DNA from: Chloroflexi bacterium OHK40 | GTDB lineage: Bacteria > Chloroflexota > Chloroflexia > Chloroflexales > Chloroflexaceae | DNA: 35,685 nt | Assembly (NCBI GenBank): GCA_004367505.1 | Contig: SFCB01000211.1 | Span: forward strand, 1-35,685 | Direction of reading: 5' to 3' | Shown: positions 2,308 to 17,945 of the stretch, piece by piece | Layout of the letters: each line of letters opens with the position of its first letter | Position numbering within the stretch: position 1 is the stretch's first letter | Notes under the pieces: generated by a model | Told to the model about the DNA's origin: nothing | Seen by the model: the letters and a program-made list of their open reading frames with translations, nothing else | Database searches by the model: none | Position numbers and translations under genes: made by a program

Positions 2308-3825
2308 TCAGGGGTGTGCGCGTGGGAGCACGCGGTAGATCGGCCCGGCAGGGTCGATGCGGTAATCGTCCAGCAATTCAGCCGTTGGTGCATCGATGTA
2401 CACCGGCCGCCGGTGCAACTCGCGGGCGATCAGTCGCTCCAGGTCCTCCGGGCGGATCAGGAAGCGATTGATCGCCGTGATGTCTGGCCGGCGGCTCTCA
2501 ACGAGCTGTAGGTACTCCACCAGCGGAACCGTCTCCCAGTAGCCGAGTACGAGCCCACCGGGCGCCACCACCTCCAGCACGGCCTCGCCGCGCTCCCGGG
2601 CGCTCCAATCGTTAGCCCGGCTCACCAGATGCCAGTTCCACCCCAGGGCAGCCACGACGGCCACCGTGAGGACGCCCCGGAGGAGCCGCAGTTCGGCCTG
2701 TCCGCCGTTGTCCCGGCTCACCCAGGTAAGGAGTTGCTGGTAGCCTACCCCGGCCCAGAGCGCCCAGACGAGGTAGGTGGGCAGGTACATGGTGTTCTTG
2801 TCCACCACGCGGTAGCCGATATAGAAGCACGCGTTGGCGAGGAACATGAGCGCGAGCGCGAGACCGAGCCAGCGGTCGCGGCGCAGCAGCGCCGCCACTC
2901 CGAGCAAGCCCGGGCCGACGCCAACGGCGAAGAAACTCCGGAAGAGCTGGGCGCCGTAGGCCCCCGCCTCGCGCAGCCAGCCGGCCGGGCTGTAGCCGAG
3001 CATCTGTTCCGCGAACGAACGCCCGGTGATCAGCCACCAGAGTTGCTGGGGCTGCAGCAGGTTCACCGGGGAAAAGACGCCTGCCGCGTCGTACATGCCG
3101 ACGTAGTTGAAGGCGGGCTGGCCCAGGGAGCGGAGCGGAAGATAGAGGTAGACGGAGAGCCCGAGGAGCCCTCCCGCTACGGCAGCACCGATCGAGCGGG
3201 GAGCCAGCGCGCGGCGCGGTGCCGTCCCGACGACGAAGACGAGGCATGCTGGCACCAGCAGGGCTGTGGCCAGATGGTGACCCATACTCACGCCGCCGAC
3301 GAGCGCGAGCAGCCCCAGGCGCCGTGGGATCGGCTGCTCACGCCAGCGCAGCAGGAGCAGGATGATCCCGGCCATCAGGGCGGTGTGCAGGGTGTAGACT
3401 TCGGCGATTAGCGAGAGGGCCCAGAAGAACGGCGCTGTTGCCAGTAGCCCGAGTGCCCCGAAGGCGGCCCACGGCCCAACCCCCAGCCGGCGTAGCACTC
3501 GGTCGGCCAGGAGCACGGTTGTGGCCCCGCCCACCGCCGAGAGCAGGTTCATCCGGTAGCCCACATCGCCCACTGGGAGCTGCGCCCAGAGCCAGCCGAG
3601 CATCAGGTAGACGGGGTAGCCGGTGGCGCGCGTCAGGCCGCCGGTTGCCGCCGCCGTGGTCAGTTCCGCGCTATCCAGGTTGTAGATCGTCGGCGCCAGC
3701 GTGAGGGTGTAGAGGGCCATCGGCCCGACGAAAGCCGCAACACTGCGGACGTCGACCATCCCCAGGAGTTGCTGGAGGCTGTGCGGGCGGGCATGGCTCG
3801 GCTGAGCGGTGTGACGAATGACCAT
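2308..3825 (-). CDS. DUF2723 family membrane glycosyltransferase-like protein
   Basis: About 505 residues from the ATG at 3825; the frame is open further upstream, but that part is basic, not conserved-looking, and has no good start signal. The first membrane block reads ALYTLTLAPTIYNLDSAELTTAA, then TGYPVYLMLGWLWAQLPVGD. This is the DUF2723 (TMEM260-like) signature, in which the acidic DSAEL loop after helix 1 corresponds to the catalytic loop of GT-C enzymes. Many hydrophobic helices follow, with a soluble C-terminal domain of about 120 residues (LEVVAPGGLVLGYWETVPLVEYLQ). Eukaryotic TMEM260 is an O-mannosyltransferase; bacterial members are uncharacterised. The gene starts just after the hairpin that follows the giant oxidase gene, so O-glycosylation of exported neighbours is a reasonable guess. 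Confidence 0.78.
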   Translation of the reverse strand: MVIRHTAQPSHARPHSLQQLLGMVDVRSVAAFVGPMALYTLTLAPTIYNLDSAELTTAAATGGLTRATGYPVYLMLGWLWAQLPVGDVGYRMNLLSAVGGATTVLLADRVLRRLGVGPWAAFGALGLLATAPFFWALSLIAEVYTLHTALMAGIILLLLRWREQPIPRRLGLLALVGGVSMGHHLATALLVPACLVFVVGTAPRRALAPRSIGAAVAGGLLGLSVYLYLPLRSLGQPAFNYVGMYDAAGVFSPVNLLQPQQLWWLITGRSFAEQMLGYSPAGWLREAGAYGAQLFRSFFAVGVGPGLLGVAALLRRDRWLGLALALMFLANACFYIGYRVVDKNTMYLPTYLVWALWAGVGYQQLLTWVSRDNGGQAELRLLRGVLTVAVVAALGWNWHLVSRANDWSARERGEAVLEVVAPGGLVLGYWETVPLVEYLQLVESRRPDITAINRFLIRPEDLERLIARELHRRPVYIDAPTAELLDDYRIDPAGPIYRVLPRAHP

Positions 3826-3914
3826 ACAGGCTCGACGGTGTTGGCGTGGTCTCGTATGTAGAAACTTCAGTGGGAGCCAGAAGTTACGGGCTTGTTTCCG
3901 CAATGTGCGGGCCA

Positions 3915-3939
3915 GTGGGGTGGAGCGTGCCCACCCCAC
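3915..3939 (-). terminator. Hairpin after the giant oxidase gene
   Basis: A 9-bp perfect stem (GTGGGGTGG at 3915-3923, complement at 3931-3939) with a 7-base loop lies 19 bases past the stop codon of the oxidase gene, before the DUF2723 gene begins. There is no U-tract, as is common in GC-rich genomes. It probably separates the two transcription units. Confidence 0.5.
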
Positions 3940-3957: not shown

Positions 3958-6900
3958 CTATGGGAGATACTGGGTGCGAATATTCAGCATGTCGAAGCTG
4001 TCGGTGTAGCTTTTGGTCGGGTGGCTCAGGCTCACGCGCACGCGCAGCTCCCCGCTGCTCTGGCTCACGTAGCGCAGCGCCTCATTCTCCGGCGTTGCCG
4101 GGTCGTCTGCTACGGTGGCCGAGTGGGCCCCTTCCCAGGCGGTATGGGCGAAGGCTGGGCCATACACCTGGTCCCACGTACCGCTCTGGTAGTTCCAGAG
4201 ATACAGGCTCTGGGTCACCCCAGCCCGGCTGCCGCGCTCAACGAAGCTCACCTCGATCGTGCGCAGATCGCGCTGCCCGGCGGGAAGCATGAGCGTGCCA
4301 TAGCCATCGCTCATGTGTTCCCACTGGTTCAGGTCGTTGCGCAGGCGGCTCGATCGCAGCGTAAGCAGTTGGCCATCCTGATAGGCCAGCAGGTGGACAT
4401 AGCCCGCCGCGATGCCGCCTTTGGTGATCGTCCAGCGGCTCGGGCTGCTGACGAAGCTCGCTGGCGGAGAGCCGTGACCCGCCCCGTAGTTCACGTTGTA
4501 GATCCCCTCGGTCACGGCACTAGTATTGCCCGCCCGGTCGATCGCAACCACTTTGAGGGTTGTGGTGCCGCGCGCGGCGATCAGCACGGCCTGGTCGATC
4601 AGCGGGTGGCCTGTGGTGGCCGTCGGGGTACTGCCGTCCAGGGTATAGCGGAAGCGCGCGCCCGTTTCCGACTCGAGCTCCACGGGGATCGCCGAGTCGT
4701 AGCTGCCTGGCGGGGTGAGCAGCGTGGGCGCGGGGGGCGGGGTGGTGTCTACCGTGTTGTACTGCCCGAAGACAACTTCGAGCGAGGAGCCGTTGGCTGG
4801 TGCCACCAGCTTGAGCCGGGTGATCGGCGTACCGTTGGCCGCCAGAGGCGTGGTGCGGGTCCAGCCGGTAGGTGCCAGTACTTCCAGGTAGTAGGTGCGC
4901 CCGGCAGTTATTCGGAAGGCGGCATCGCCTGCGGGCCCGGTGACCAGTGTGCTCAGGACCGTCCGGTTGTTCCTGTCGTAGAGCACCACATTGCGGTTGG
5001 CCAGGGCGCCCTCGAACGGGTCCCACAGGCCGTCGCGGTCGTGGTCCTCGAAGACGCGCACCCCGACCGTGCTCAACTGGACGAAGCCGATTCGGGCGAT
5101 CCCAGTGGTGCCGGGGGCCACGGTGAGGTGCTGCGTGGGGCCCGTAGTGGGTGTCCAGGCAATCGTCGCGCCCGGCGGTGTCACCTCCACCTGGTAGCTA
5201 CGGGTCTGGCCATGGGCGGGGGCGATGTACCACGTGGCGCGGCCATCATTGCCAGTGGTGGTTTGAGCTACCACGCCGCCGTTGGCGTCGCGCAGAGTGG
5301 CCTGCCAGCCCACGAGTTTGCCTTCGCCACTCTCGCGCGTGCCATTGCGGTTGATGTCGTTGAAAGGCTCGGCCACCACCCAGTGGTTGGGGTTGTAGTA
5401 AGGCAGGGTGATCGTCTGCGCGCTATTGGCGAGCACCTCGGTGATGACGGTGTTGTCGTTGCAGGCGCTCACGCTTCCCGCCGTACCGGTTGCCACCGAG
5501 AGCAAGGGGGGCTTGCAGATCCAGTCGCGGCCAGCCCGGATCTGGACGATGTAGGTGCCGGGTAGCACACCCTGGATCTCGGGCGCCGGGTCATCGGCGG
5601 TGAAGCTTCCGGCGATACTGGTGCTACCGGTCAGCAACTGTGGCGGCAGATCGGTCGGCCCACCGTAGGCGCTGACGCGCCAGCCGCTCAGTGGCTCCTC
5701 GCCGCTATCGCGCACGCCGTTGTTGTTGCTATCGTTGAAGAGCGTGACACTCAGGCCCGCCCTGGGGGCGAACCCGGCGGAGAGTTCGATATCGTCGCCG
5801 GCGAGCGAGAGGTTCACCGGGTTCGGGCTGGTAGCGAAGTAGCCAGCCGCCGGGATGACCTCCAGGCTGTAGCTGCCTGGGCGCCGGTCGGCGAAGCTCA
5901 CCCGGCCATCGGCGCCGCTCGTGCTCGTAGCGAGGATGGTTCCACCCTGGCGGAGCCGCACGCTCCAGCCGGCCAGTGCCCCCTCGCCGCTGCCACGCAT
6001 GCCATCGCCATCGCCATCCTGGAAGAGGTCCAGGTGTACGGTCGAGAGCTTCACCAGGCCGAAGCTGCCCGTCACGAGGCTATTCTCCGCCTGGGCATCC
6101 ACCCGGAGCCTGGATGCCGTCGTGCTGCTGCGACCGGCGCCGGGTAGCACCTCCAGGTCGTACAGCCCGGCGCGCACATGGAAGCTAACGGAGCCGCTCG
6201 CATCGGTGGTCTGCGTGGCGATCACCCCGCCACCCGGGGCCAGCAGGTTCACCGCGATGCCGGCCACGCCTGCCTCGCCGTTGTTGCGGGTACTGCTCAT
6301 GTTCTGGTCGGCAAAGACGCTGGCGCTCACCGTCACCCGTTCGAGCGGCACGAGCGGGTGGGCCCCGCTCTGGTAGGGGTTGTCCTGCGCGGCGATGGCC
6401 GATGGTGCGTGCAGGGGCTGCGCTGGTGGCTGGCCGTAGACGCGGAAGATCCCCCAGAGCCCGCGCGACTCGAAGAAGTTCCGCTCGACCGAGCCATACT
6501 GATAATCGCCCGGGGCGTGCAGCATGCTGCCGGCGCTGTCCAGGTGCAGATTGAAGGAGCGGCCGACACTGACACCGCCCATGGCCCCCACCAGGCGCCC
6601 GTTGGGGTCGCCCGGGTCATCGAGCCAGGCGTGCCCGCCGATCTGGAAGACGTGCTGGCGAGGGCGGTCGCCCGTCTGGAGCAGACGCACCCGTACCGGA
6701 TCACCGGCATAGGCGCGCAGGATGGGGGTGGCCGGGTCGCCCCAGCGCCACGAACTGAAGAGTTGGGCGAGGTCGCTGCCAGTGAGCGGGTCTTCGTCGT
6801 CAGCGCCAGTTGCCACGCGCCCCAGGCGCTCGTGGAGCGGCTCGGTGCCGTAGTTGAAGCCCTTCTCGCCGATATTCTCATCGGCGCCCTCACCCGCCGG

Positions 6901-9900
6901 GTGGAGCGAGTTCACAGGCGCGCCCTCATCGTTGTGCTGTTCGTCGGGGGGCAGCACATCGTCTGGCTCGCGCACGAAGGAGCCGTCGGATCGGCGCAGA
7001 TTGAGGCCGTCCTGATAGAACACCGCGAGGTCGCGGAAGTCGGCCTGGCCTCGGACGCGCACATCCACATAGGCGCCATCGGTCACCGGCGCGCCGCTGA
7101 AGGGATCGTGGTACGTTGCACCTTTGGGGCCAACAACTAGCCCCGCGAGCAGGCCGTGGTGACGGTGACCACGCACGTCGCCGTACTCGAGCAGGTTGAC
7201 GGCGCCGAGCTCACCTGGCGTGACCTCGTCGGCGTACCAGCGGTAGGTGATGCTCCCGCCCGGGCCGACCGTCTGATCGCGGTTGTAGCCCACGGTGGCC
7301 CCATCGGAGCCGCGCACATCGTACTGGAGCAGCTGGGGGTGCAAACTCACGCGCAGCCCGCCCGGGGTACCCTCACTTGGCTCAGTGGGCATGTTCGGAT
7401 CGCCGTCGCGCACGCCGAGGGCGCCATGGCGCTCCTGCCAGCTCGGGCTGATCCGGTTGAGCAGAGTCACCTCCACACAGTCGCCCTCGTTCACCCGTAG
7501 CACCATGGGCTCGGGGTGGGCGGCATTGCGGGCCATCGCCTGCTCGACCGTCTCACCGGCGCGCACGGCGGTGTAGAGCAGGCCATAGGGGTCGTGGTAG
7601 TCGGCGCGGGTGTTGTAGGTGATCGGCGCGTCGTGGGCCACGACGGTAAAGCGCTTGACGGGCGCCTCAGGCACACAGGGAGTGCCGGGCTGGTTGGCCG
7701 GCGGTGGTGGGCTACCACTGGGCCGGAAGTTCACGTTGCCCGTCATGTCCTGCGGGCGGGTATCGGGCAGCGGCAGCAGGCCGTTGCGGTTCCGGCCATA
7801 AACGCGCAGCAGGCCCCAGGCGCCCTGGTAGATCCCGTCGGTGGCATTGAGGGTGTAGAGATAATCGCCACGGCAGTCCTCGTCCCAGCCGCAGCTCATC
7901 TGCGGTACCCTGGCGTTGAAAGCCTCGGAGATACCGATCGAGACGCTATTCACCAGTTGGGACCTAGGGTCGGCGGGCTCCTGGCGCCAGCGCATGCCGT
8001 GGATCTGGAAGGAGTGCTGTTCCTCCTGGGAGCCCTGGATGAGGCGGAACTGCACCGGGTCGCCAGCGTAAGCTTCGAGCAGCGGGGTTTTCGGATCGCC
8101 GAAGACGTGCGAACTGAAGACGTAGGCCGGGTCGACGGGCTGTCCGTTCACGCGGCGGCGCTCCTGCAGTGGGGCGTTGCGGTAGTTGATCGCGAAGGTG
8201 CCCGGGTCTTCGTCGGGGAGCATCTCCGGCATTTCCGGCGGGTTGATCGCAAAGTCGGGGTTGCGCAGGCGCTGGGCATTGCCCCAGGCGCCTGGCCGGA
8301 ACAGAGCGACGAAGTCCTGGATGGCCAGGCCGAACTCGCGGAAGTCGTCATTTGCGCCGGGGCCGATCAGGTCCATGCGGGCGCCGCGCGCTTCACCAGT
8401 GCAGGCGCTATCGCAGGGAGTGCCGTTGGCGGCACTGTTGATCGGCTGGTAGAACTCCCCGGTCACCGGGTTGCGGAAGTCGAAGCCGGCGGGCTCGACG
8501 ATCAAGGCGCCAAAGTTGCCACGGTTCTGGTCCACGGCGGCGAAGTGATGGTCGTGGGTGAAGACGGTACGCAGTTCGCTGTCGGCGTACCAGCGCTCGC
8601 GGATGGTCTGGCCGGGCCATTGCCCGCTCGACTGCGGGTGGAAGTCCGCAGGGGTGGGGAGCTGAAGGCGGCAGCCGGCCATGCTACAGCTTGCGTTCCC
8701 GGCGAGGATGTCATTCTTGAAGCGCGTCTGCAGCTGGGTAAAGGCAGCCTGCTGATAGTTCCAGCCGTTCGACGAGCCGTCGGAGGCGAGCACGTCGAAC
8801 TTCACCAGGTGGATGTGGCCCCCCATCATGTTGGTCTGGGTTAGCTGGACGAAGGCGTCGCCGCCGAACCAGTTGGGCAGGTAGTTGCTCAGGTTGAAGT
8901 TGATGCAGTCGCCCTGGTTCACGCGGATGAAGAGCGGCTCGGGGGCTCTGGTGCCGGCGAGGATTGCGTCGCGATCCTTGTCCAGCACGAGGATGCGGGC
9001 CTGGTTGTCGAACCAGCCGGCCTCGTTGTAGACGATCGGCAGCTGGATCAGCGAGACGTTGTAGGTCACCTCGCGGGCGCCGGGCGGGCATGGGTCGGTG
9101 AATGGCGCGCCGGGTTTGGCGCGGCCGCCGCTGAGCCGGGCCATGGCCGCCTCTTCGACGGCGAGCCGGGCGGCCAGATCAGGATTGAGGGTGGCGTCGA
9201 GGGCCTTGCCGGCAACCATGCGCAGGCCAGGGCTCACATCCTCGCGCTCGACGGTGCTCGGGTCGTCAGTTGCGCCATTGGGCTCGTAGATGCCGAGCGG
9301 GGGCTGGGGAGCGCGCCAGCCGAACTCGCCCGGGATGAAGCGTGGAAAGCCGGGCTGCTCGGCGCTGGCCGCCGGGGGCGTGTAGCCGTTGAGGTTGCCC
9401 GAGGGGAGCGGCTGGAGCGTGCGCACCCGAATGCCATCGGGAGTGCTCATGCTGCCGTCCTCGATGACGTCGTGTACGCGCAGCAAGGCCCAGAAGCCAG
9501 CGGCGAAGTGGGGGTAGAGGTGACAGTGGAAGATCGAGTCGCCGACGGTGCCGGGGAGGCTGCCCGCGCCGCCGATCAGGTCGGCCGTGAAACTGTCGCC
9601 CGGGCCGAAGGTCTGCGAGTCGATGATCGTGGAGTCGGAATCGTCGGGCTGGGCCCGCCACTGGTTGGCGTGGAGGTGGAAGACATGGGTCTCATAGGTC
9701 ATCGTCAGGGCGTAGCGCAGCTTGAAGCGGTCCCAGCGGTACGCCCGGGTAACATTGGCCGTCCAGCAACTCTCGGAGGTGAAGCCGGGGGTGCCGAGGC
9801 CACAGTCCTCGGGATCAGGTTCGCCGCCGTCGGCCCAGGCGGGCAGCCAGGGGCCTTCACCCGAGGCAAGCTTGACGAGGCCAGGGTCGCCGTAGACCCA

Positions 9901-11370
9901 GGAGGAGAGGCTGGTCTCCTCACCGACGCAGTCGGGGCAGAGTTGGCGGGTGCGGCTCTCGGCCGGCTCGGCGCCATAGTTGAAGCCGAAGCCGATGCCC
10001 GGGATCTCATCCTGGGCGAGTTGCACCGACTCGCGGAAGGCGCCGCCGCTGGGGGGCACGATGATCGCATCGATGTAGAGCTCGCCGCTCTGCTGGCTGG
10101 TCTGGCTACTGTAGAGCGGCGCGCCGCTGACCGGGTCGAGCCAGGTGGAGCCGGCCGGCTCGACGGCCAGCGCGCCGAAGAGCCCGTGGACGACACTGCC
10201 GCCGTCGGCTTCGCTGCCGGTGGGTGAGGCGGTGTCGCGGAAGAGGTAGAGGCCCTCCCGCTCGGGGGCAAGCCAGTAGTACTCGATGCTCTCACCCCGG
10301 CCGATGGTGGTGTCGGGGTTATAGCCGACGTTGCCGCCATCGCTGGTGGCGGCGTTGTAGGCGATGCCGATCGGGTGCATCGAGGCCCGTGGGTTCAGGA
10401 GTTCGCCGCCCCACTGGCGCTCATCGAGCTTATTGGTGAAGCGGATCTTCACGCAATCGCCGGCATTGGCGCGCAGTACGAGGGGCCGGGGGCGCAGGCG
10501 ACGGTTGTGCTCCGGCGTGCTTGAATCCAGGGGGGTGGCCCAGTTGCGATAAGCCGATTCATCGCCGGCGAGGGCGTACATCATGCCGTTACGGTCCAGA
10601 TCGCCCCAGCGATTGTAGGGGATGTGGACATTGATCGCGACGACATCGTAGCTACGCTGGTAGGGGCTGCCGGCCTGGCACTGGGCCGGGGCTGCGGCGG
10701 CGGGCGTGCTGCCGAGCAAGGCGCCGAAGGGGCTCAGGGTCATCAGCGCGGCCATGCCAGCCACCAGGGCGCTGCGGCGCACGGCGGGGCGGCCGAGCCG
10801 GCGCCCGGCAGCGGCCACGGGGGCCGGGCTGGCCTTGAGCAGCGCGGCGAGGGCGCAGATGGCCAGGTGCGCGGGGAGCAGGAGCAGGCCGTCGCGCAGC
10901 AGGGCCTGCGAAGTGGGTCCGGCGCCGGCCTCCACGCCCGCCACCGAGCAGAGGAATAGCGCGGCGGCATTGGTGGGCGCGAGCAGGCCTCGGGCGGCCC
11001 AGGCGTAGAGCGGGCCTGCCAGGCTGGCGGCCAGGCTGGTGGTCAAGGCGGTGAGAGCGGCGTGCGCCACGCTGTCGTCCGTGGCCAGGCGGCGCGTCAG
11101 GGTGCCAGCGATCAGCATGGCCAGCAGTGTGACGGGCAGTAGCACGGTCGAGTCGCGGAGCCAGGCCGCCACATCGCCCCCTGCGGTGGCGCTATGCAGC
11201 AGGTGGAGCCAGTACCCCCCGCCGTAGCTAAGCGCGGCGGCCAGGCCGAGTCGGGCCAGCGCAAAGCGCACGCCCCGGGCGATGGCATCGCGCCCACGGT
11301 TGCTCTCGCCCGCTCCTGGGGGCTGAAGGATGGCCCCGGAAGCATCAAACCGGTTCTTGCATGTTTCCAT
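3958..11370 (-). CDS. Giant MnxG-like multicopper oxidase with membrane N-terminus and SdrD-like repeats
   Basis: 2470 residues, starting at the ATG at 11370 behind a G-rich GGGGGAG site. Residues 1-230 hold four or five hydrophobic helices, the last ending in an Ala-rich signal-like stretch. Residues about 235-1650 form three related two-cupredoxin units; each opens with a similar strand and then a RANAGDCV / RVNQGDCI / RVNEGDCV block. Copper ligands of the trinuclear site are split: H562, H565, H567 and H615-C616-H617 with H621 in unit 1, and H852/H854 and H939/H941 in unit 2. The type 1 site is H562, C616 and H621 with Phe626 at the axial position. Unit 3 has lost the motifs. Five SdrD/Cna-like repeats with Asp-rich, Ca-binding-type loops follow (about 1675-2130), then a chitobiase-C-like domain (about 2210-2290) and a beta-rich tail. 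The layout recalls Mn(II)-oxidising MnxG. The substrate (Mn, Fe or organic) is not shown by sequence. Confidence 0.88.
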   Translation of the reverse strand: METCKNRFDASGAILQPPGAGESNRGRDAIARGVRFALARLGLAAALSYGGGYWLHLLHSATAGGDVAAWLRDSTVLLPVTLLAMLIAGTLTRRLATDDSVAHAALTALTTSLAASLAGPLYAWAARGLLAPTNAAALFLCSVAGVEAGAGPTSQALLRDGLLLLPAHLAICALAALLKASPAPVAAAGRRLGRPAVRRSALVAGMAALMTLSPFGALLGSTPAAAAPAQCQAGSPYQRSYDVVAINVHIPYNRWGDLDRNGMMYALAGDESAYRNWATPLDSSTPEHNRRLRPRPLVLRANAGDCVKIRFTNKLDERQWGGELLNPRASMHPIGIAYNAATSDGGNVGYNPDTTIGRGESIEYYWLAPEREGLYLFRDTASPTGSEADGGSVVHGLFGALAVEPAGSTWLDPVSGAPLYSSQTSQQSGELYIDAIIVPPSGGAFRESVQLAQDEIPGIGFGFNYGAEPAESRTRQLCPDCVGEETSLSSWVYGDPGLVKLASGEGPWLPAWADGGEPDPEDCGLGTPGFTSESCWTANVTRAYRWDRFKLRYALTMTYETHVFHLHANQWRAQPDDSDSTIIDSQTFGPGDSFTADLIGGAGSLPGTVGDSIFHCHLYPHFAAGFWALLRVHDVIEDGSMSTPDGIRVRTLQPLPSGNLNGYTPPAASAEQPGFPRFIPGEFGWRAPQPPLGIYEPNGATDDPSTVEREDVSPGLRMVAGKALDATLNPDLAARLAVEEAAMARLSGGRAKPGAPFTDPCPPGAREVTYNVSLIQLPIVYNEAGWFDNQARILVLDKDRDAILAGTRAPEPLFIRVNQGDCINFNLSNYLPNWFGGDAFVQLTQTNMMGGHIHLVKFDVLASDGSSNGWNYQQAAFTQLQTRFKNDILAGNASCSMAGCRLQLPTPADFHPQSSGQWPGQTIRERWYADSELRTVFTHDHHFAAVDQNRGNFGALIVEPAGFDFRNPVTGEFYQPINSAANGTPCDSACTGEARGARMDLIGPGANDDFREFGLAIQDFVALFRPGAWGNAQRLRNPDFAINPPEMPEMLPDEDPGTFAINYRNAPLQERRRVNGQPVDPAYVFSSHVFGDPKTPLLEAYAGDPVQFRLIQGSQEEQHSFQIHGMRWRQEPADPRSQLVNSVSIGISEAFNARVPQMSCGWDEDCRGDYLYTLNATDGIYQGAWGLLRVYGRNRNGLLPLPDTRPQDMTGNVNFRPSGSPPPPANQPGTPCVPEAPVKRFTVVAHDAPITYNTRADYHDPYGLLYTAVRAGETVEQAMARNAAHPEPMVLRVNEGDCVEVTLLNRISPSWQERHGALGVRDGDPNMPTEPSEGTPGGLRVSLHPQLLQYDVRGSDGATVGYNRDQTVGPGGSITYRWYADEVTPGELGAVNLLEYGDVRGHRHHGLLAGLVVGPKGATYHDPFSGAPVTDGAYVDVRVRGQADFRDLAVFYQDGLNLRRSDGSFVREPDDVLPPDEQHNDEGAPVNSLHPAGEGADENIGEKGFNYGTEPLHERLGRVATGADDEDPLTGSDLAQLFSSWRWGDPATPILRAYAGDPVRVRLLQTGDRPRQHVFQIGGHAWLDDPGDPNGRLVGAMGGVSVGRSFNLHLDSAGSMLHAPGDYQYGSVERNFFESRGLWGIFRVYGQPPAQPLHAPSAIAAQDNPYQSGAHPLVPLERVTVSASVFADQNMSSTRNNGEAGVAGIAVNLLAPGGGVIATQTTDASGSVSFHVRAGLYDLEVLPGAGRSSTTASRLRVDAQAENSLVTGSFGLVKLSTVHLDLFQDGDGDGMRGSGEGALAGWSVRLRQGGTILATSTSGADGRVSFADRRPGSYSLEVIPAAGYFATSPNPVNLSLAGDDIELSAGFAPRAGLSVTLFNDSNNNGVRDSGEEPLSGWRVSAYGGPTDLPPQLLTGSTSIAGSFTADDPAPEIQGVLPGTYIVQIRAGRDWICKPPLLSVATGTAGSVSACNDNTVITEVLANSAQTITLPYYNPNHWVVAEPFNDINRNGTRESGEGKLVGWQATLRDANGGVVAQTTTGNDGRATWYIAPAHGQTRSYQVEVTPPGATIAWTPTTGPTQHLTVAPGTTGIARIGFVQLSTVGVRVFEDHDRDGLWDPFEGALANRNVVLYDRNNRTVLSTLVTGPAGDAAFRITAGRTYYLEVLAPTGWTRTTPLAANGTPITRLKLVAPANGSSLEVVFGQYNTVDTTPPPAPTLLTPPGSYDSAIPVELESETGARFRYTLDGSTPTATTGHPLIDQAVLIAARGTTTLKVVAIDRAGNTSAVTEGIYNVNYGAGHGSPPASFVSSPSRWTITKGGIAAGYVHLLAYQDGQLLTLRSSRLRNDLNQWEHMSDGYGTLMLPAGQRDLRTIEVSFVERGSRAGVTQSLYLWNYQSGTWDQVYGPAFAHTAWEGAHSATVADDPATPENEALRYVSQSSGELRVRVSLSHPTKSYTDSFDMLNIRTQYLP

Positions 11371-11614: not shown

Positions 11615-12187
11615 TCAATGGTGACTCGGAGCCTCGCCGAGCTGGAGCACAATCGGGTAAGCCCCGTCGTAGCGCAGGCTCAGCGTCTCGGCGTCGGCGG
11701 GCACCCGGAAGACGAGAGTGCCGGTCATCCCGCTGCCTGGTGGGACGGTCGTAGTGCCCATATCGCTGCGCAGGGGAGCGATCGGGCCCAGGCCAGGCGC
11801 GCTCACGCTAAAGCGCTCCGCCCGTACATCGAGCCCGTCGGGGCCCTGGCCTACCAGGCTCAGCAGCACCGTGAAGGTGCGCTGCCCCTCCGGCGTGCTG
11901 TCCGGCACCATCGCCGACATGGCCATGCCAAGGCGGGCGAAGCGCTCGTGATTCATCGGGGCGAGCTGTTCCGGGATCACCGCCTCCACCCGCATGCGCC
12001 CCCCCGGGAGGGCTACGTCGTCGCCGGGAGCGGCGTTCCAGGCGATACCACCGTGCCGGAGCGCCTGATCCAGCGCTGTGGTGAGGCCGAGTATGGCGAG
12101 CACGCCGATGAGCGCGGTGATGATCCTGATGGAGGATGGCCTGCCCACCCGTCCGCGCCGTTGTCTGAACGCTGCCAGGGATGCCAA
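11615..12187 (-). CDS. Anchored 190-residue protein with a Met/His-rich segment, oxidase neighbour
   Basis: I place the start at the TTG at 12187 because GGAG lies exactly 7 bases upstream; an ATG at 12217 in frame has no such site and would add ten residues. A single membrane helix (IITALIGVLAILGLTTALDQAL) is followed by an Ig-like beta domain. The segment PMNHERFARLGMAMSAMVPD is rich in Met and His, and another Met-containing loop reads MGTTTVPPGSGMTG. Such clusters often bind Cu(I), so a copper-delivery or accessory role for the oxidase encoded 244 bases downstream is plausible but unproven. The domain superficially resembles DUF4352-type exported proteins; I do not recognise a named family. 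Confidence 0.65.
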   Translation of the reverse strand: MASLAAFRQRRGRVGRPSSIRIITALIGVLAILGLTTALDQALRHGGIAWNAAPGDDVALPGGRMRVEAVIPEQLAPMNHERFARLGMAMSAMVPDSTPEGQRTFTVLLSLVGQGPDGLDVRAERFSVSAPGLGPIAPLRSDMGTTTVPPGSGMTGTLVFRVPADAETLSLRYDGAYPIVLQLGEAPSHH

Positions 12188-12270
12188 GATGACTCTCCTT
12201 TCATCTTGCCGTACCATCGCTGGAAGGCGCTGCCCGTCGCCGGGTGCGCCTTCACATCAACCGAAGTCAT

Positions 12271-12317: not shown

Positions 12318-14561
12318 CTAGCGGACGCGATAGGTGAAGTTGAGCTGGCGACCGCCCGCGCTGGTGCAGACGCTCACCCGGTTGTTCGGGGTGGTGTTGG
12401 TGATCCGCGCCGGGCCCGTCTGGCGGATCTCCCAACCCTCCACCGCCACCACATCGGCAACACCGATGAACTGGGGAACGTCGGTGCGGAGACCGTTGGG
12501 GCCAGCCGGGCAGGTGGTGCCCTGGTAGACATAGGCCCGGTTGCCCTGACCCTCGATCGCGGCCGTCCCGCGCACGCGCCACTGCTGCGAGGTGGCGGTA
12601 TACTGGGCGCTCACGATCGTCACACTATCCACGCGCGAGGTGATCTGCACCGTGTCGGTGTCGCTGCCACCCGGGCCGTTGACAGTGAGGGCTAGCACGA
12701 TGGTTGTGGCCGTGTCGGCGCTGCTGTAGTCGGTGCGGAGCGGGAAGACGAAACTCGGCGTAGCTGTGCTGGCACCGGTGAGCACAACACTCGGCCCGCT
12801 CTGCTGCGTCCAGCTGTAGCTGACGGCGTTTGTCGATGCCGAGGCGTCCAGGCGCACCGTGGCACCGCGCACCGCCTGCTGGTCCGCCCCGGCGTTCGCC
12901 TCGGGCGCAGCCGTCGCCGGGACCGTCACCGTCACTTCGTTGCTGCTGGGGCCGCCAGGACCCTCGACCGTCAGGCTGAAGCGTAGCGTCATCGGCTCTG
13001 TGCCGGGGTTTGCGGGGGCCGTGAAGGTGGTCACAGGGCTATTCGGGCTGCTCAGCGTGACGCTCGGGCCCTCGATCTGCGTCCACTGCCAGTCCGTCAC
13101 CTCGCCCTGGGACTGGTTCCCATCGAGAGTCACGAGGCTGCCCTGGATGGCGGTCTGGTTGGCGCCGGCCGCCGCCACAACCGGAATAGGCGGGTAGGTA
13201 TCGCCGCCAACGCGGACCTGCTCGGTATCCCAGCCTCCGGCCGTCGAGCGGACGGTGACATACTGGGGCGGGGCGGTCATATTCGTGATCGTGGCCTGAC
13301 CGTTGACGAGGGCAACGTCGCGGCCTTCGATCGTCAGGACCGGGTCGTTGAACTGGTCGCTGGACGAGGCCTCCACCACCAGCGTGCCGAGCGTAGCGCC
13401 TGTTGTTGCGTTGTGAGCGATCGTGTACTCGGCCCGGCTAATGGTGACGATATCGATCGGGGTGGCGGTCTTGGAGACGGGAGGGGTGTCGCTGCGGTTC
13501 CAGACGGTCACCTGTTCGGGTGCGGCATTGGCGGGGAGGGCGATGCTCGCGAAGTAGTTGCCGCCTTCGCCAATCGCCTGGGTGCGCGCGAAGCTCGCGC
13601 CATCCACCTCGATCGCCTGACCGGACTCGGAGGTGGCGTAGACGTGCAGCGTGGTCGCGCCGGTGCTGCTGCGGTTGTAGAGCGTGGAGACGATATCCAC
13701 GCCGGCATTCGTCGCGTACTTGCCAGAGAGCGCAAAGAGATTGGTGTAGGCGCAGTTGGGGTCGCTCTCGCGGCCAGGGCAGCCGTTGGGGTCGCCGGGC
13801 TGGCGCAGGCCGGGGCCCTCAATCATAAAGAAGTTCGTGTTGTAGGGCGAGCCGATGACCGGGTGCTCGATTCCTGGATCACCGATATAGCCAGTGGGCG
13901 CGGCGGGGCTCACCGCCGGGTCCCACCTGAGGAAAGGCCCGATCCGGCTATTCAGTGGGCCGGTGTAAGCACCGATGCCGATATCTTCGGTGAAGTTGAT
14001 ATCCTTCACCACATCCTCTTCAACGGTGAAGGTATCCACACCATAGGGGTGGGTGATCCGGTAGGTTTGGCCGAGTTGCAAGTTCTCCACGCGGATACGC
14101 ACCCGCCCGAAGGCCACCTGATCGCCCTGGATGGGGTTCTCGTTGGCGAAGGCGGCCTCAAGGGCTAGCACCAGGGCCGCATTCACGCCGCCGGGCACCT
14201 CGATGAACGAGTCGGCCGCCATCCAGAACGCCTCAGCAGGAAAGTTGCCGGTATGGACGCTCAGCGGCTGATCAGGGAAGGGCACATCGGCGTTGGTGAG
14301 CAGGCAGTAGGTATCAATATCGAGGCAGAGCTCCAGGCGAACGTTGTTCGTGTCTTTGTACCAGACGGGGAACCCATGCTCGCTGGCCACCGGGCCGACA
14401 GCGGCGAGGCCGTCCTGGCCATTATTGTGGAAGGCGCCAAAGGCGACCAGGCCCGAGGTCGCCAACGCGGCGATCAGCCCGGCGATCACGATGATCGCAA
14501 ACCGAGAGCGACGTTGGGGGTGGCGGTGGTTCAGCGGTTGTGGTGCAGGACGCTTGTTCAA
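12318..14561 (-). CDS. Anchored surface protein with PKD/REJ-type domains, oxidase-locus partner
   Basis: 747 residues starting at a TTG at 14561; AAGGAG lies 7 bases upstream and fixes this start. A basic N-terminus and one helix (FAIIVIAGLIAALATSGLVAF) anchor it. Residues about 55-330 form an unrecognised domain beginning FPVWYKDTNNVRLELCLD with a nearby second Cys and several aromatic/Pro-Gly motifs (THPYGVDTF). Two PKD/REJ-type domains follow at about 462-550 and 556-640, each with a GANQ/GADQ opening, the pattern S-Y/W-x-W-T-Q and GPSV. A short module starting VTI-x-x-A-x-YT occurs twice, before the first PKD domain (about 374) and after the second (about 645). It probably sits on the outer face of the membrane and may scaffold the giant oxidase. 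No enzyme motif is visible. Confidence 0.75.
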   Translation of the reverse strand: MNKRPAPQPLNHRHPQRRSRFAIIVIAGLIAALATSGLVAFGAFHNNGQDGLAAVGPVASEHGFPVWYKDTNNVRLELCLDIDTYCLLTNADVPFPDQPLSVHTGNFPAEAFWMAADSFIEVPGGVNAALVLALEAAFANENPIQGDQVAFGRVRIRVENLQLGQTYRITHPYGVDTFTVEEDVVKDINFTEDIGIGAYTGPLNSRIGPFLRWDPAVSPAAPTGYIGDPGIEHPVIGSPYNTNFFMIEGPGLRQPGDPNGCPGRESDPNCAYTNLFALSGKYATNAGVDIVSTLYNRSSTGATTLHVYATSESGQAIEVDGASFARTQAIGEGGNYFASIALPANAAPEQVTVWNRSDTPPVSKTATPIDIVTISRAEYTIAHNATTGATLGTLVVEASSSDQFNDPVLTIEGRDVALVNGQATITNMTAPPQYVTVRSTAGGWDTEQVRVGGDTYPPIPVVAAAGANQTAIQGSLVTLDGNQSQGEVTDWQWTQIEGPSVTLSSPNSPVTTFTAPANPGTEPMTLRFSLTVEGPGGPSSNEVTVTVPATAAPEANAGADQQAVRGATVRLDASASTNAVSYSWTQQSGPSVVLTGASTATPSFVFPLRTDYSSADTATTIVLALTVNGPGGSDTDTVQITSRVDSVTIVSAQYTATSQQWRVRGTAAIEGQGNRAYVYQGTTCPAGPNGLRTDVPQFIGVADVVAVEGWEIRQTGPARITNTTPNNRVSVCTSAGGRQLNFTYRVR

Positions 14562-15118: not shown

Positions 15119-15550
15119 ATGGACGCTTCTATCCGCATCGTGATCGCTGATGACCACCACGGATTCCGGACTGGTGTGGCCGAGTTGCTGAGCGGCGAAC
15201 CAGACATGTGCGTGGTTGGGCAGGGGGCCAGTGCGGCGGAGGCGGTCGACCTTGCTACCACTTGCCGGCCAACGCTTGTGCTGCTCGACCTGGACATGCC
15301 CGGTGGCGGGATCAACGCCCTGCGTGCCATCCAACAGGCCTCGCCGCTGGTCAAGGCGGTAGTCTTGACGGTCTCGGCGAGTGAGGATGACCTGCTGGCC
15401 GCGTTTCAGGCCGGGGCGAGCGGGTATATTCTCAAGGGTGTGAGCGCGCGCCAGCTGACGGGCATTCTGCGCGCGGTTGCCACTGGTGGCAGCTACGCGC
15501 CCCAGCCGTTCACCGCATTGCTCGCCAATGATCGAGTGACAAAAATGTAA
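15119..15550 (+). CDS. Stand-alone receiver (CheY-like) protein of the NarL family
   Basis: 143 residues with a complete receiver domain: acidic pair D11-D12, phospho-acceptor D57 in VLLDLDMPGGG, the Thr of VVLTVSA and the Lys of GYILKGVSA. It resembles the receiver half of the regulator at 17289-17945, but the protein stops right after the receiver where the linker to the LuxR helix-turn-helix should begin. No DNA-binding remnant is visible in the 260 bases downstream; a strong hairpin follows instead. It may act as a phosphate sink or competitor for the adjacent kinase, or be a truncated regulator. SD is weak (AGAAACGA region). Confidence 0.75.
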   Translation: MDASIRIVIADDHHGFRTGVAELLSGEPDMCVVGQGASAAEAVDLATTCRPTLVLLDLDMPGGGINALRAIQQASPLVKAVVLTVSASEDDLLAAFQAGASGYILKGVSARQLTGILRAVATGGSYAPQPFTALLANDRVTKM

Positions 15551-15813: not shown

Positions 15814-17292
15814 ATGTCCGTAGCGATCGACGAGCAGGCGTCTATGCTGCCAGCACCCGAGGCTTCGGCGCCCGTCGCCCATGTGCGGTCGAGGCCACTC
15901 CTGAGCGGGCTGACACCAGCACAGCGCTTTATGATCGCGAGCTTCGCGATTCTGCTCGCTGGCATGGCGGGGATCGGATGGTGGATCAGCACGCAGATCG
16001 AGCGCAGCGTTCTCAATCGGACTGCCTTTACCACCGCCCTCTACGTTGACAGCTTTGTAGCTGGCCCCTTGCAGGAGCTTGTCAGTCGCGACACCCTCTC
16101 GCCGGCCGCCGTCGCGGAGTTGCGCCGCCTGCTCGACGGCACTGCTCTTGGCAAGGAAGTGGTGGCCTTCAAGGTGTGGAACCGTGAGGGTGAGGTGATC
16201 TACAGCGCCGACCCGGCGCTGATCGGTCGGCGCTTTCCGATCGAAGGGGAGCTCCAATACTCGTTGAACGGTCGCGTCGCTGCGGAGTTGAGCGATCTGG
16301 ACGAGGCGGAAAACGTGAACGAGCGCACCCGGGCCGACCGGCTGCTCGAGATCTACAGCCCCGTTCGGGCCGAGGGCGATGGCCGTGTGATCGCCTCGGT
16401 GGAGTTCTACCAGCGCGTCGATGAGCTCGAGGCGCTGATCGCCGGCGCGCAGCAGCGCTCCTGGCTGATCGTGCTCGCCGTAACGGCGGCCATGTATCTC
16501 CTCCTTGGCGGCTACGTCCACCGCTCGAGCCGTACGATCGTCCGCCAGGACGCCGAGTTGCAGGCGCAGGTGGCCCGCCTGACGGAGGTGCTCGCCCAGA
16601 ACGAGGAGCTCACTGAGCGGCTCCGCAGGGCCGCGGCCCGCGCGACCGCCTACAATGAGCGCCTCCTGCGGCGGATCAGCGCCGAGCTCCACGATGGGCC
16701 GGCGCAGTACCTTGGTCTGGCTATCCTCCGGCTGGATCGCGTAGCGGCCGCTGTTGAGCAGTTGCCCGCCGCTACCACTACCCTCGGCGACGATCTCGAC
16801 GCCATCCAGAGCTCGCTCACCCAGGCCATGCAGGAGGTGCGGGCGATCTCGGCAGGGATCGGGCTGCCCCAGCTCGACCAGTTGAGCCTCGCCGAGGTGG
16901 CCAGCCGGGCTGTGCGAGCCCATGAGCGCCGTACACGCACCAGTGTCGATCTGTGTGTCGCCGACCTCCCTGAGCAGGCCCACGCTTCGGTCAAAATTGC
17001 GGTCTACCGGGTGATCCAGGAGGGCCTGAACAACGCTACACACCACGCGGGTGGTGCTGGCCAGCGCGTCGAGCTCCGTAGTGCCGGCGACAGCGTGCAG
17101 CTCTGGGTGACCGACGCGGGGCCGGGTTTCGCGCCTCCGCCCCCCGGCGATTGGGGTGAGCACATGGGCCTCGCCGGGATGCGCGAGCGTGTTGAAAGCC
17201 TCGGCGGCGAGTTCGCGCTGCTCAGCCAGCCCGGCGACGGCACACGTATCTTTGCTTCGATCCCGCTCCAGATCCGCCAGGAACTGCTATGA
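15814..17292 (+). CDS. NarL-type sensor histidine kinase
   Basis: 492 residues. A cytoplasmic N-tail leads to a helix at about 40-60 (FMIASFAILLAGMAGIGWWI), then an extracytoplasmic sensor of about 150 residues resembling a dCache/PAS-like fold, and a second helix at about 225-240. A coiled coil (AELQAQVARLTEVLAQNEEL) joins it to the HisKA_3 dimerisation domain with phospho-acceptor H293 in ELHDGPAQ. The HATPase domain shows the N-box NNATHHA at about 406-412 and the G-box DAGPGF, then GLAGMRERV. It autophosphorylates on H293 and should pass phosphate to the regulator encoded next, with which it overlaps by ATGA. The signal sensed is unknown. Confidence 0.92.
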   Translation: MSVAIDEQASMLPAPEASAPVAHVRSRPLLSGLTPAQRFMIASFAILLAGMAGIGWWISTQIERSVLNRTAFTTALYVDSFVAGPLQELVSRDTLSPAAVAELRRLLDGTALGKEVVAFKVWNREGEVIYSADPALIGRRFPIEGELQYSLNGRVAAELSDLDEAENVNERTRADRLLEIYSPVRAEGDGRVIASVEFYQRVDELEALIAGAQQRSWLIVLAVTAAMYLLLGGYVHRSSRTIVRQDAELQAQVARLTEVLAQNEELTERLRRAAARATAYNERLLRRISAELHDGPAQYLGLAILRLDRVAAAVEQLPAATTTLGDDLDAIQSSLTQAMQEVRAISAGIGLPQLDQLSLAEVASRAVRAHERRTRTSVDLCVADLPEQAHASVKIAVYRVIQEGLNNATHHAGGAGQRVELRSAGDSVQLWVTDAGPGFAPPPPGDWGEHMGLAGMRERVESLGGEFALLSQPGDGTRIFASIPLQIRQELL

Positions 17293-17945
17293 GCCAGCCG
17301 TTGCGTGTGGTGATCATTGATGATCACCCGCTCTTCCGCGAAGGGGTTGTCCACATTCTGAAGAGCGACCCCGGGATCGAGGTGGTGGGCGAGGGCGAGT
17401 CCGCCGAGGATGCGCTATGCGCGCTGCGACAGTACCAGCCCGATATTCTTCTGCTGGATCTGGATATGCCTGGCGGGGGGCTGGCAGTGGTGGCACGGGC
17501 CGCCGAGGTGGCACCGGCGACGAAGGTGGTGGTGCTTACCGCCTCGAGTGATGAGGAGCACGCCATCGCTGCCTTCCGCGCCGGGGTGCGTGGCTACATT
17601 CTCAAGGGGGTTAGCTCCCGCGAGTTGGTGGCGATTCTGCGCAGCATCCACGCCGGGAAAGGCTATGTCCCTCCGAGCCTTGGCGCACTTTTGATCAGCG
17701 GGCTCGCTTCGCCTGCACCGCGCCCGGCCGCGCCCACGCCGCTCGTCGATCTGACCCCCCGCGAACAACAGATTCTGCTCCAGATCGCCGCCGGGCTGAG
17801 CAACAAAGAGATCGGCACGGCCTTCAACCTCACCGAGAAGACGGTGAAGTATTACGTGTCCAACATCTTGCTCAAATTGCAGGTGCGCAACCGTGTCGAG
17901 GCGGCCCTGCTTGTCCAGAAGCTGCAAGCGGCGGGGCAGCTCTGA
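17289..17945 (+). CDS. LuxR/NarL-family response regulator
   Basis: 218 residues, the usual family length. The receiver (1-125) has D11-D12, acceptor D57 in LLLDLDMPGGG, the switch Thr in VVVLTAS and Lys in GYILKGVS. A Pro/Ala linker leads to a GerE/LuxR helix-turn-helix at about 150-215 (LTPREQQILLQIAAGLSNKEI, then TEKTVKYYVSNILLKL). Its start codon overlaps the kinase stop (ATGA), so the two are translationally coupled and almost certainly form a cognate pair. Target genes cannot be read from the window. Confidence 0.93.
   Translation: MSQPLRVVIIDDHPLFREGVVHILKSDPGIEVVGEGESAEDALCALRQYQPDILLLDLDMPGGGLAVVARAAEVAPATKVVVLTASSDEEHAIAAFRAGVRGYILKGVSSRELVAILRSIHAGKGYVPPSLGALLISGLASPAPRPAAPTPLVDLTPREQQILLQIAAGLSNKEIGTAFNLTEKTVKYYVSNILLKLQVRNRVEAALLVQKLQAAGQL

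Follow-up and report, generated by a model that had tools for sequence, protein, structure and literature searches.

Gene content of the locus and domain architecture of the oxidase

The window, i.e. the whole stretch of 35,685 nucleotides that was analysed (contig SFCB01000211.1 of Chloroflexi bacterium OHK40), contains on its minus strand, at 3958-11370, a single uninterrupted frame of 2470 codons. From the frame itself, the NCBIfam model NF041487 and PDB entry 9bxa, it was identified as a whole gene for a six-domain multicopper oxidase (MCO) of the MnxG family. On the same strand, 11615-12217 codes for a DUF4352-like protein of 200 aa, hereafter called the partner, and 12318-14561, located upstream of the partner gene, for a surface protein with a PKD domain. 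Profile matches on the plus strand revealed a NarL-type pair made up of a sensor histidine kinase (15814-17292) and a response regulator (17289-17945). A short plus-strand ORF at 15119-15550 was strongly similar to this regulator and represents a lone or truncated regulator copy.

The nearest solved protein to the 2470-aa product was MnxG of Bacillus sp. PL-12 (PDB 9bxa; phmmer, E 2e-214), the Bacillus Mnx complex being the sole MnxG structure in the PDB copy searched. The NCBIfam MnxG model (NF041487, 1894 positions) matched in five stretches (E 9e-127), which places the protein in the same family as P. putida MnxG over all domains. However, its score of 424 bits was well under the curated equivalog cut-off of 3100, so it is not P. 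putida MnxG as such. A structure model of the core (residues 240-1430, 33 sequences; pLDDT 87, pTM 0.87) displayed a predicted MnxG fold, with 9bxa as top match (TM 0.77; Z 33.7; 2.5 A over 978 residues, 41% identity) and a runner-up at Z 24; coagulation factor Va, ceruloplasmin and two-domain laccases were further matches (Z about 23-24). The initial annotation had proposed a surface MCO related to MnxG, and these homology and fold matches bear it out: judged from sequence and modelled fold, the product is a surface MCO of the MnxG family. Its gene is patchily distributed in the phylum, since an mnxG-type gene was sought in 60 relatives and found in none but the window's own genome; when 400 genomes were sampled from the phylum, eight gave any match to the gene at E 1e-30.

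The protein begins with a membrane domain (residues 1-232; 10675-11370, on the minus strand like all features of this gene), in which a hydropathy scan predicted several hydrophobic helices, three of them clearing a strict Kyte-Doolittle cut, and which ends in TPAAAAPAQ. Residues 235-1650 are composed of three mutually homologous units of two cupredoxin domains each, as initially annotated. Unit 1 (domains 1 and 2, about residues 235-650; 9421-10668) and unit 2 (domains 3 and 4, about residues 770-1200; 7771-9063) were delimited by alignment and model, and unit 3 (domains 5 and 6, about residues 1240-1650; 6421-7653) by alignment. BLASTP gave E values of 1e-12 between units 1 and 2, 9e-22 between units 1 and 3 and 7e-36 between units 2 and 3. 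All three aligned end to end with equal start and end domain boundaries, and 9bxa MnxG was aligned over all domains. The tail is formed by SdrD B-like repeats (about residues 1684-2180; 4831-6321; Pfam PF17210, E 4e-40, four stretches) and a chitobiase/beta-hexosaminidase C-terminal-like domain (residues 2220-2287; 4510-4713; Pfam PF13290, E 2e-11). Tandem DNA repeats were searched for in the tail region with TRF and none were returned. Unlike MnxG of Bacillus sp. PL-12, the window protein is thus equipped with N-terminal membrane helices and an SdrD-like and chitobiase-like tail, and it is twice as long. Just downstream of mnxG, two minus-strand ORFs (324-1517 and 2308-3939) code for a PIG-V mannosyltransferase-like protein and a TMEM260-like membrane glycosyltransferase, for which surface glycosylation of the adhesin tail is a possible role.

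Copper ligands and layout of the active site

Ten His and one Cys make up the full set of copper ligands, correcting an earlier count of eight His and one Cys. Domain 2 holds the HxxHxH motif (HVFHLH, residues 562-567; 9670-9687), with H562 as T1 ligand and H565 and H567 as trinuclear ligands, and the HCHxxxH motif (HCHLYPH, residues 615-621; 9508-9528), with H615, H617 and the T1 ligands C616 and H621; the T1 axial position is occupied by F626 (9493-9495). Domain 3 holds two HxH motifs with trinuclear ligands, GHIHL (H852/H854; 8809-8817) and THDH (H939/H941; 8548-8556). The positions 562-621, 852/854 and 939/941 given in the initial annotation were therefore confirmed: the T1 ligands are confined to domain 2, HCH occurs nowhere else, the HxH pair is found only in domain 3, and the trinuclear ligands are shared out between these two domains. 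In the phmmer alignment with 9bxa, from which the MnxG residue numbers were counted, the ligands land in the same order on H281, H284 and H286, on H334, C335, H336 and residue 340, on H529 and H531, and on H575 and H577. Residue 340, aligned with H621, is Ala in 9bxa; as this entry is titled 'Mnx H340A complex', the Ala is an engineered change.

An alignment was built from the cores of 80 loci of the genome collection (designated below by L numbers), the Rubrobacter plasmid and the window, giving 85 rows, of which 84 were complete. All 11 ligands were identical in 84 of the 84 complete rows, although the locus search pattern contained H852 and H854, so that the invariance of these two was partly selected for. 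Such identity indicates that the motif layout is not due to chance. The T1 axial position was Met in 66 rows, Phe in 17 (the window among them) and Tyr in one. An MnxG relative on a Pseudonocardia plasmid (L010:4995-8765) displays WRYAPHD in place of HCHxxxH and lacks the second HxH; it is a copper-free or degraded homologue.

In the trimeric two-domain laccases, the copper site arises where domain 2 of a chain meets domain 1 of its neighbour. The window protein resembles these enzymes (SLAC, Ssl1; Z about 23 over about 245 residues) in its repeating unit but, unlike their separate chains, its units are fused and two of the three sites are gone. Six-domain proteins have been derived from a tripled two-domain ancestor, with possible joints 6/1, 2/3 and 4/5, and in every bacterial six-domain MCO analysed the trinuclear ligands came from domains 2 and 3, the T1 site being restricted to domain 2 (PMC3600357). 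Ceruloplasmin is likewise a ring of six cupredoxins paired into three two-domain units (Z about 24), but its trinuclear site lies at joint 6/1 and T1 sites are found in domains 2, 4 and 6 (PMC3600357). This ceruloplasmin/hephaestin arrangement (trinuclear site at 1/6, T1 in domains 2 and 6) was not found in the window protein, where the trinuclear site is at 2/3, T1 is in domain 2 only and domain 6 has no HCH. Of the three joints, ceruloplasmin retains 6/1 and MnxG retains 2/3. The order of HCH before HxH is thus what results when three two-domain units are fused, the three joints so created being equivalent. A trinuclear site formed where unit 1 ends and unit 2 starts, as originally suggested, agrees both with the published layout and with 9bxa. 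In the model, where the fold match to 9bxa stands in for ligand distances, the copper site must lie at this domain 2/3 joint.

The initial annotation had further taken this order for a permutation peculiar to the protein. This part did not hold, because the same order is present in 9bxa MnxG and in all bacterial six-domain MCOs of PMC3600357: the domain 2/3 layout is the already published, standard MnxG arrangement, neither permuted nor new. A truly permuted MCO would have had its domains reshuffled, the HCH-bearing domain now standing ahead of the HxH-bearing one, and the chain order is indeed the reverse of that of three-domain laccases. However, the units have identical domain boundaries and align over their whole length, the order is common to all relatives, Bacillota included, and the positions of the vestigial His residues in domains 4 and 5 match a second joint predicted by the fused-trimer model. 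A permuted copper site was rejected on account of these common unit boundaries and the common order among relatives, and a reshuffled ancestry is scarcely credible.

Complete copper motifs were looked for in the remaining four domains, and none was present; unit 3, where the initial annotation had named full motifs as contrary evidence, was included. Five His residues of the window protein outside the active site were nevertheless kept in more than 85% of the rows: H1119, H1124, H1344, H1402 and H1580. The first two are in domain 4 (7999-8016; His in 84/85 and 75/85 rows, respectively), and H1344 (7339-7341; 76/85) and H1402 (7165-7167; 82/85) in domain 5 of unit 3. In domains 4 and 5, which make up the ring's third joint, these four coincide with the positions of the copper ligands and may represent a reduced metal site or structural His residues. 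The pattern was weaker in domains 1 and 6, whose ligands have decayed, domain 1 retaining only H332 and position 1578 of the window protein being Gly. Unit 3 thus lacks a full motif, but given the conserved single His residues of domains 4 and 5, the earlier view of unit 3 and the outer domains as inert may not hold.

Loss of the oxidase function is another way of reading the protein, which would then be structural or adhesive, its copper motifs being remnants. The large adhesin-like tail and the lack of an HCH motif in the Pseudonocardia relative speak for it, but the 11 ligands are intact in the window as in all complete rows while those of domains 6 and 1 have decayed, and a conserved, probably copper-handling partner has been retained. 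We consider this reading very improbable.

A distinct branch with a DUF4352-like partner

A quick maximum-likelihood tree computed from 40 cores placed the window, with full support, in a set of 16 rows whose other members come from Actinomycetota and Chloroflexota. The Rubrobacter marinus plasmid (NZ_CP045122.1, L007) and loci L015-L027, L048 and L067 displayed about 53-63% core identity to the window and shared with it the membrane helices, the axial Phe (Tyr in L067) and a DUF4352-like neighbour; the R. marinus frame is interrupted in the record. Clade members with an intact start carry N-terminal hydrophobic helices, mostly four or five predicted. Many are long-tailed, but the tails vary between SdrD-like, Ig-like and fibronectin type III domains, SdrD-like repeats and the chitobiase-like domain being found in the window, L021 and L024, and fibronectin type III in L067. 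Axial Phe is typical of the clade, as opposed to Met in Bacillota MnxG, including that of strain PL-12. Bacillota MnxG of the MnxE/F type have neither N-terminal helices nor such tails, and at most Bacillota loci MnxG is flanked by MnxE and MnxF genes. This gene arrangement of the Bacillus MnxEFG complex was absent here: no MnxE/MnxF-like ORF was detected in the window or found in its branch. Next to their MnxG locus, a Chloroflexi MAG (L018:493-6135) and genome G350 (L138:5779-11478) encode another, divergent MCO with six domains and about 1900 aa.

Where Bacillus MnxG has MnxE and MnxF, the window protein has the DUF4352-like partner. Sequence and model point to one N-terminal membrane helix followed by a beta sandwich (pLDDT 86.6), with a Met-rich loop (MNHERFARLGMAMSAM) and a His tail (SHH). 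The best fold match of the model was yjhA (3cfu, Z 12.4), other DUF4352-like proteins scoring Z 11-12. Its DUF4352 (PF11611) score was below the Pfam gathering score (20.6 vs 25.9 bits), and a weak DUF4352 match was obtained for eight of 13 homologues. Similarity to the copper chaperone PCuAC domain of Cu-bound PmoF1 (Z 7.5 over 99 residues) was under the tool's informative level. Sequence searches against solved structures gave no match for the single protein and none below E 0.18 for the profile.

In 15 of the 16 clade rows, a small DUF4352-like membrane protein is encoded near MnxG, mostly by the adjacent gene; in the sixteenth genome, the DUF4352-like match sits on another contig. The 60 relatives without MnxG gave only short or weak matches (E 3e-5 or worse, vs 1e-64 in the window). 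Members of the partner family possess a loop with two to seven Met in 25 residues and, for the most part, a His tail, and in L026 and L027 the partner is fused to a C-terminal plastocyanin-like cupredoxin. MnxE and MnxF bind copper, and active Bacillus MnxG requires both (PMC5622069). These data suggest that the DUF4352-like protein is probably a copper chaperone, or a subunit or stabiliser standing in for MnxE/F. Composition and the cupredoxin fusion make a copper role probable, whereas by fold the partner is closest to generic DUF4352 proteins. No paper linking MnxG with DUF4352 was found in the literature searched.

Other neighbours were also recurrent. Homologues of the PKD protein, whose N-terminal part of about 460 aa has no Pfam match, occur by mnxG in L021, L026 and G350 as well as in eight Bacillota loci (L030, L042, L052, L058, L062, L072, L078 and L091), making it a candidate Mnx-associated surface protein. 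A similar kinase/regulator pair is found near MnxG in L007 and G350. Copper-handling genes also accompany MnxG in L007 and L019, in keeping with the main reading of the oxidase. The order in the latter, a genome of the window's phylum, is kinase, regulator, DUF4352-like protein, MnxG of 2558 aa and PKD protein.

The membrane-anchored, adhesin-tailed, axial-Phe branch, with a different partner and without MnxE/F, seems to be new. More tentatively, and at somewhat less than even odds, it may be seen as an undescribed MnxG branch that acts at the membrane in Actinomycetota and Chloroflexota, in which a dedicated DUF4352-like copper chaperone or subunit would replace MnxE/F and the 4/5 joint would keep a second metal site in reduced form (H1119, H1124, H1344 and H1402), perhaps for Mn or extra Cu.

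Proposed mechanism, substrate and significance

Taken as a whole, the data are best explained by a membrane-anchored surface oxidase of MnxG type with its copper site at the 2/3 joint and a DUF4352-like partner, a reading to which we give a probability of about 0.8. The NCBIfam score below the equivalog cut-off and the lack of nearby MnxE/MnxF, required by the Bacillus enzyme, speak against it. The three fused units would form a six-cupredoxin ring resembling a two-domain laccase trimer in one chain, with a full copper site kept at the 2/3 joint alone of three equivalent joints. T1 copper would be held in domain 2 by H562, C616 and H621, with F626 in axial position, and the trinuclear site by H565, H567, H615 and H617 of domain 2 together with H852, H854, H939 and H941 of domain 3. 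Electrons would be donated at T1 by a metal substrate, with Mn(II) as the most likely candidate, and would reach the trinuclear site over the His-Cys-His bridge, O2 being reduced there to water. The N-terminal helices would anchor the enzyme in the membrane, and its SdrD-like and chitobiase-like tail may extend into wall, matrix or mineral. The DUF4352-like membrane protein would provide copper or stabilise the enzyme, replacing MnxE/MnxF.

Mn(II) oxidation by this enzyme appears reasonably likely from homology and modelled fold, but six-domain MCOs can also act on different substrates, the ferroxidases being an example, and the axial Phe could alter the preference. With the same fold and copper site, the substrate might instead be Fe(II), Cu(I) or organics, the enzyme being then a ferroxidase or a copper-detoxifying oxidase. 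Copper-handling CopC/CopD genes near MnxG in L007 and L019, the presence of the ferroxidase ceruloplasmin among the next fold matches and Phe rather than Met at the axial position are in line with a substrate other than Mn. However, a Mn oxidase is by far the closest solved relative (Z 33.7 vs about 24), and the ZIP and CDF metal transporters encoded beside the L007 gene suit Mn as well as other metals, which leaves a non-Mn substrate rather unlikely and Mn(II) the preferred one.

Bacterial Mn oxide formation drives metal and carbon cycling, and few Mn oxidases have been characterised. Actinomycetota and Chloroflexota carrying this gene, including relatives of Rubrobacter and Cellulomonas, are candidate Mn oxidisers. 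Moreover, as the same catalytic core occurs without MnxE/F and beside a different small protein with copper-handling appearance, the branch with this other conserved partner offers a testable route to the role of MnxE/F.
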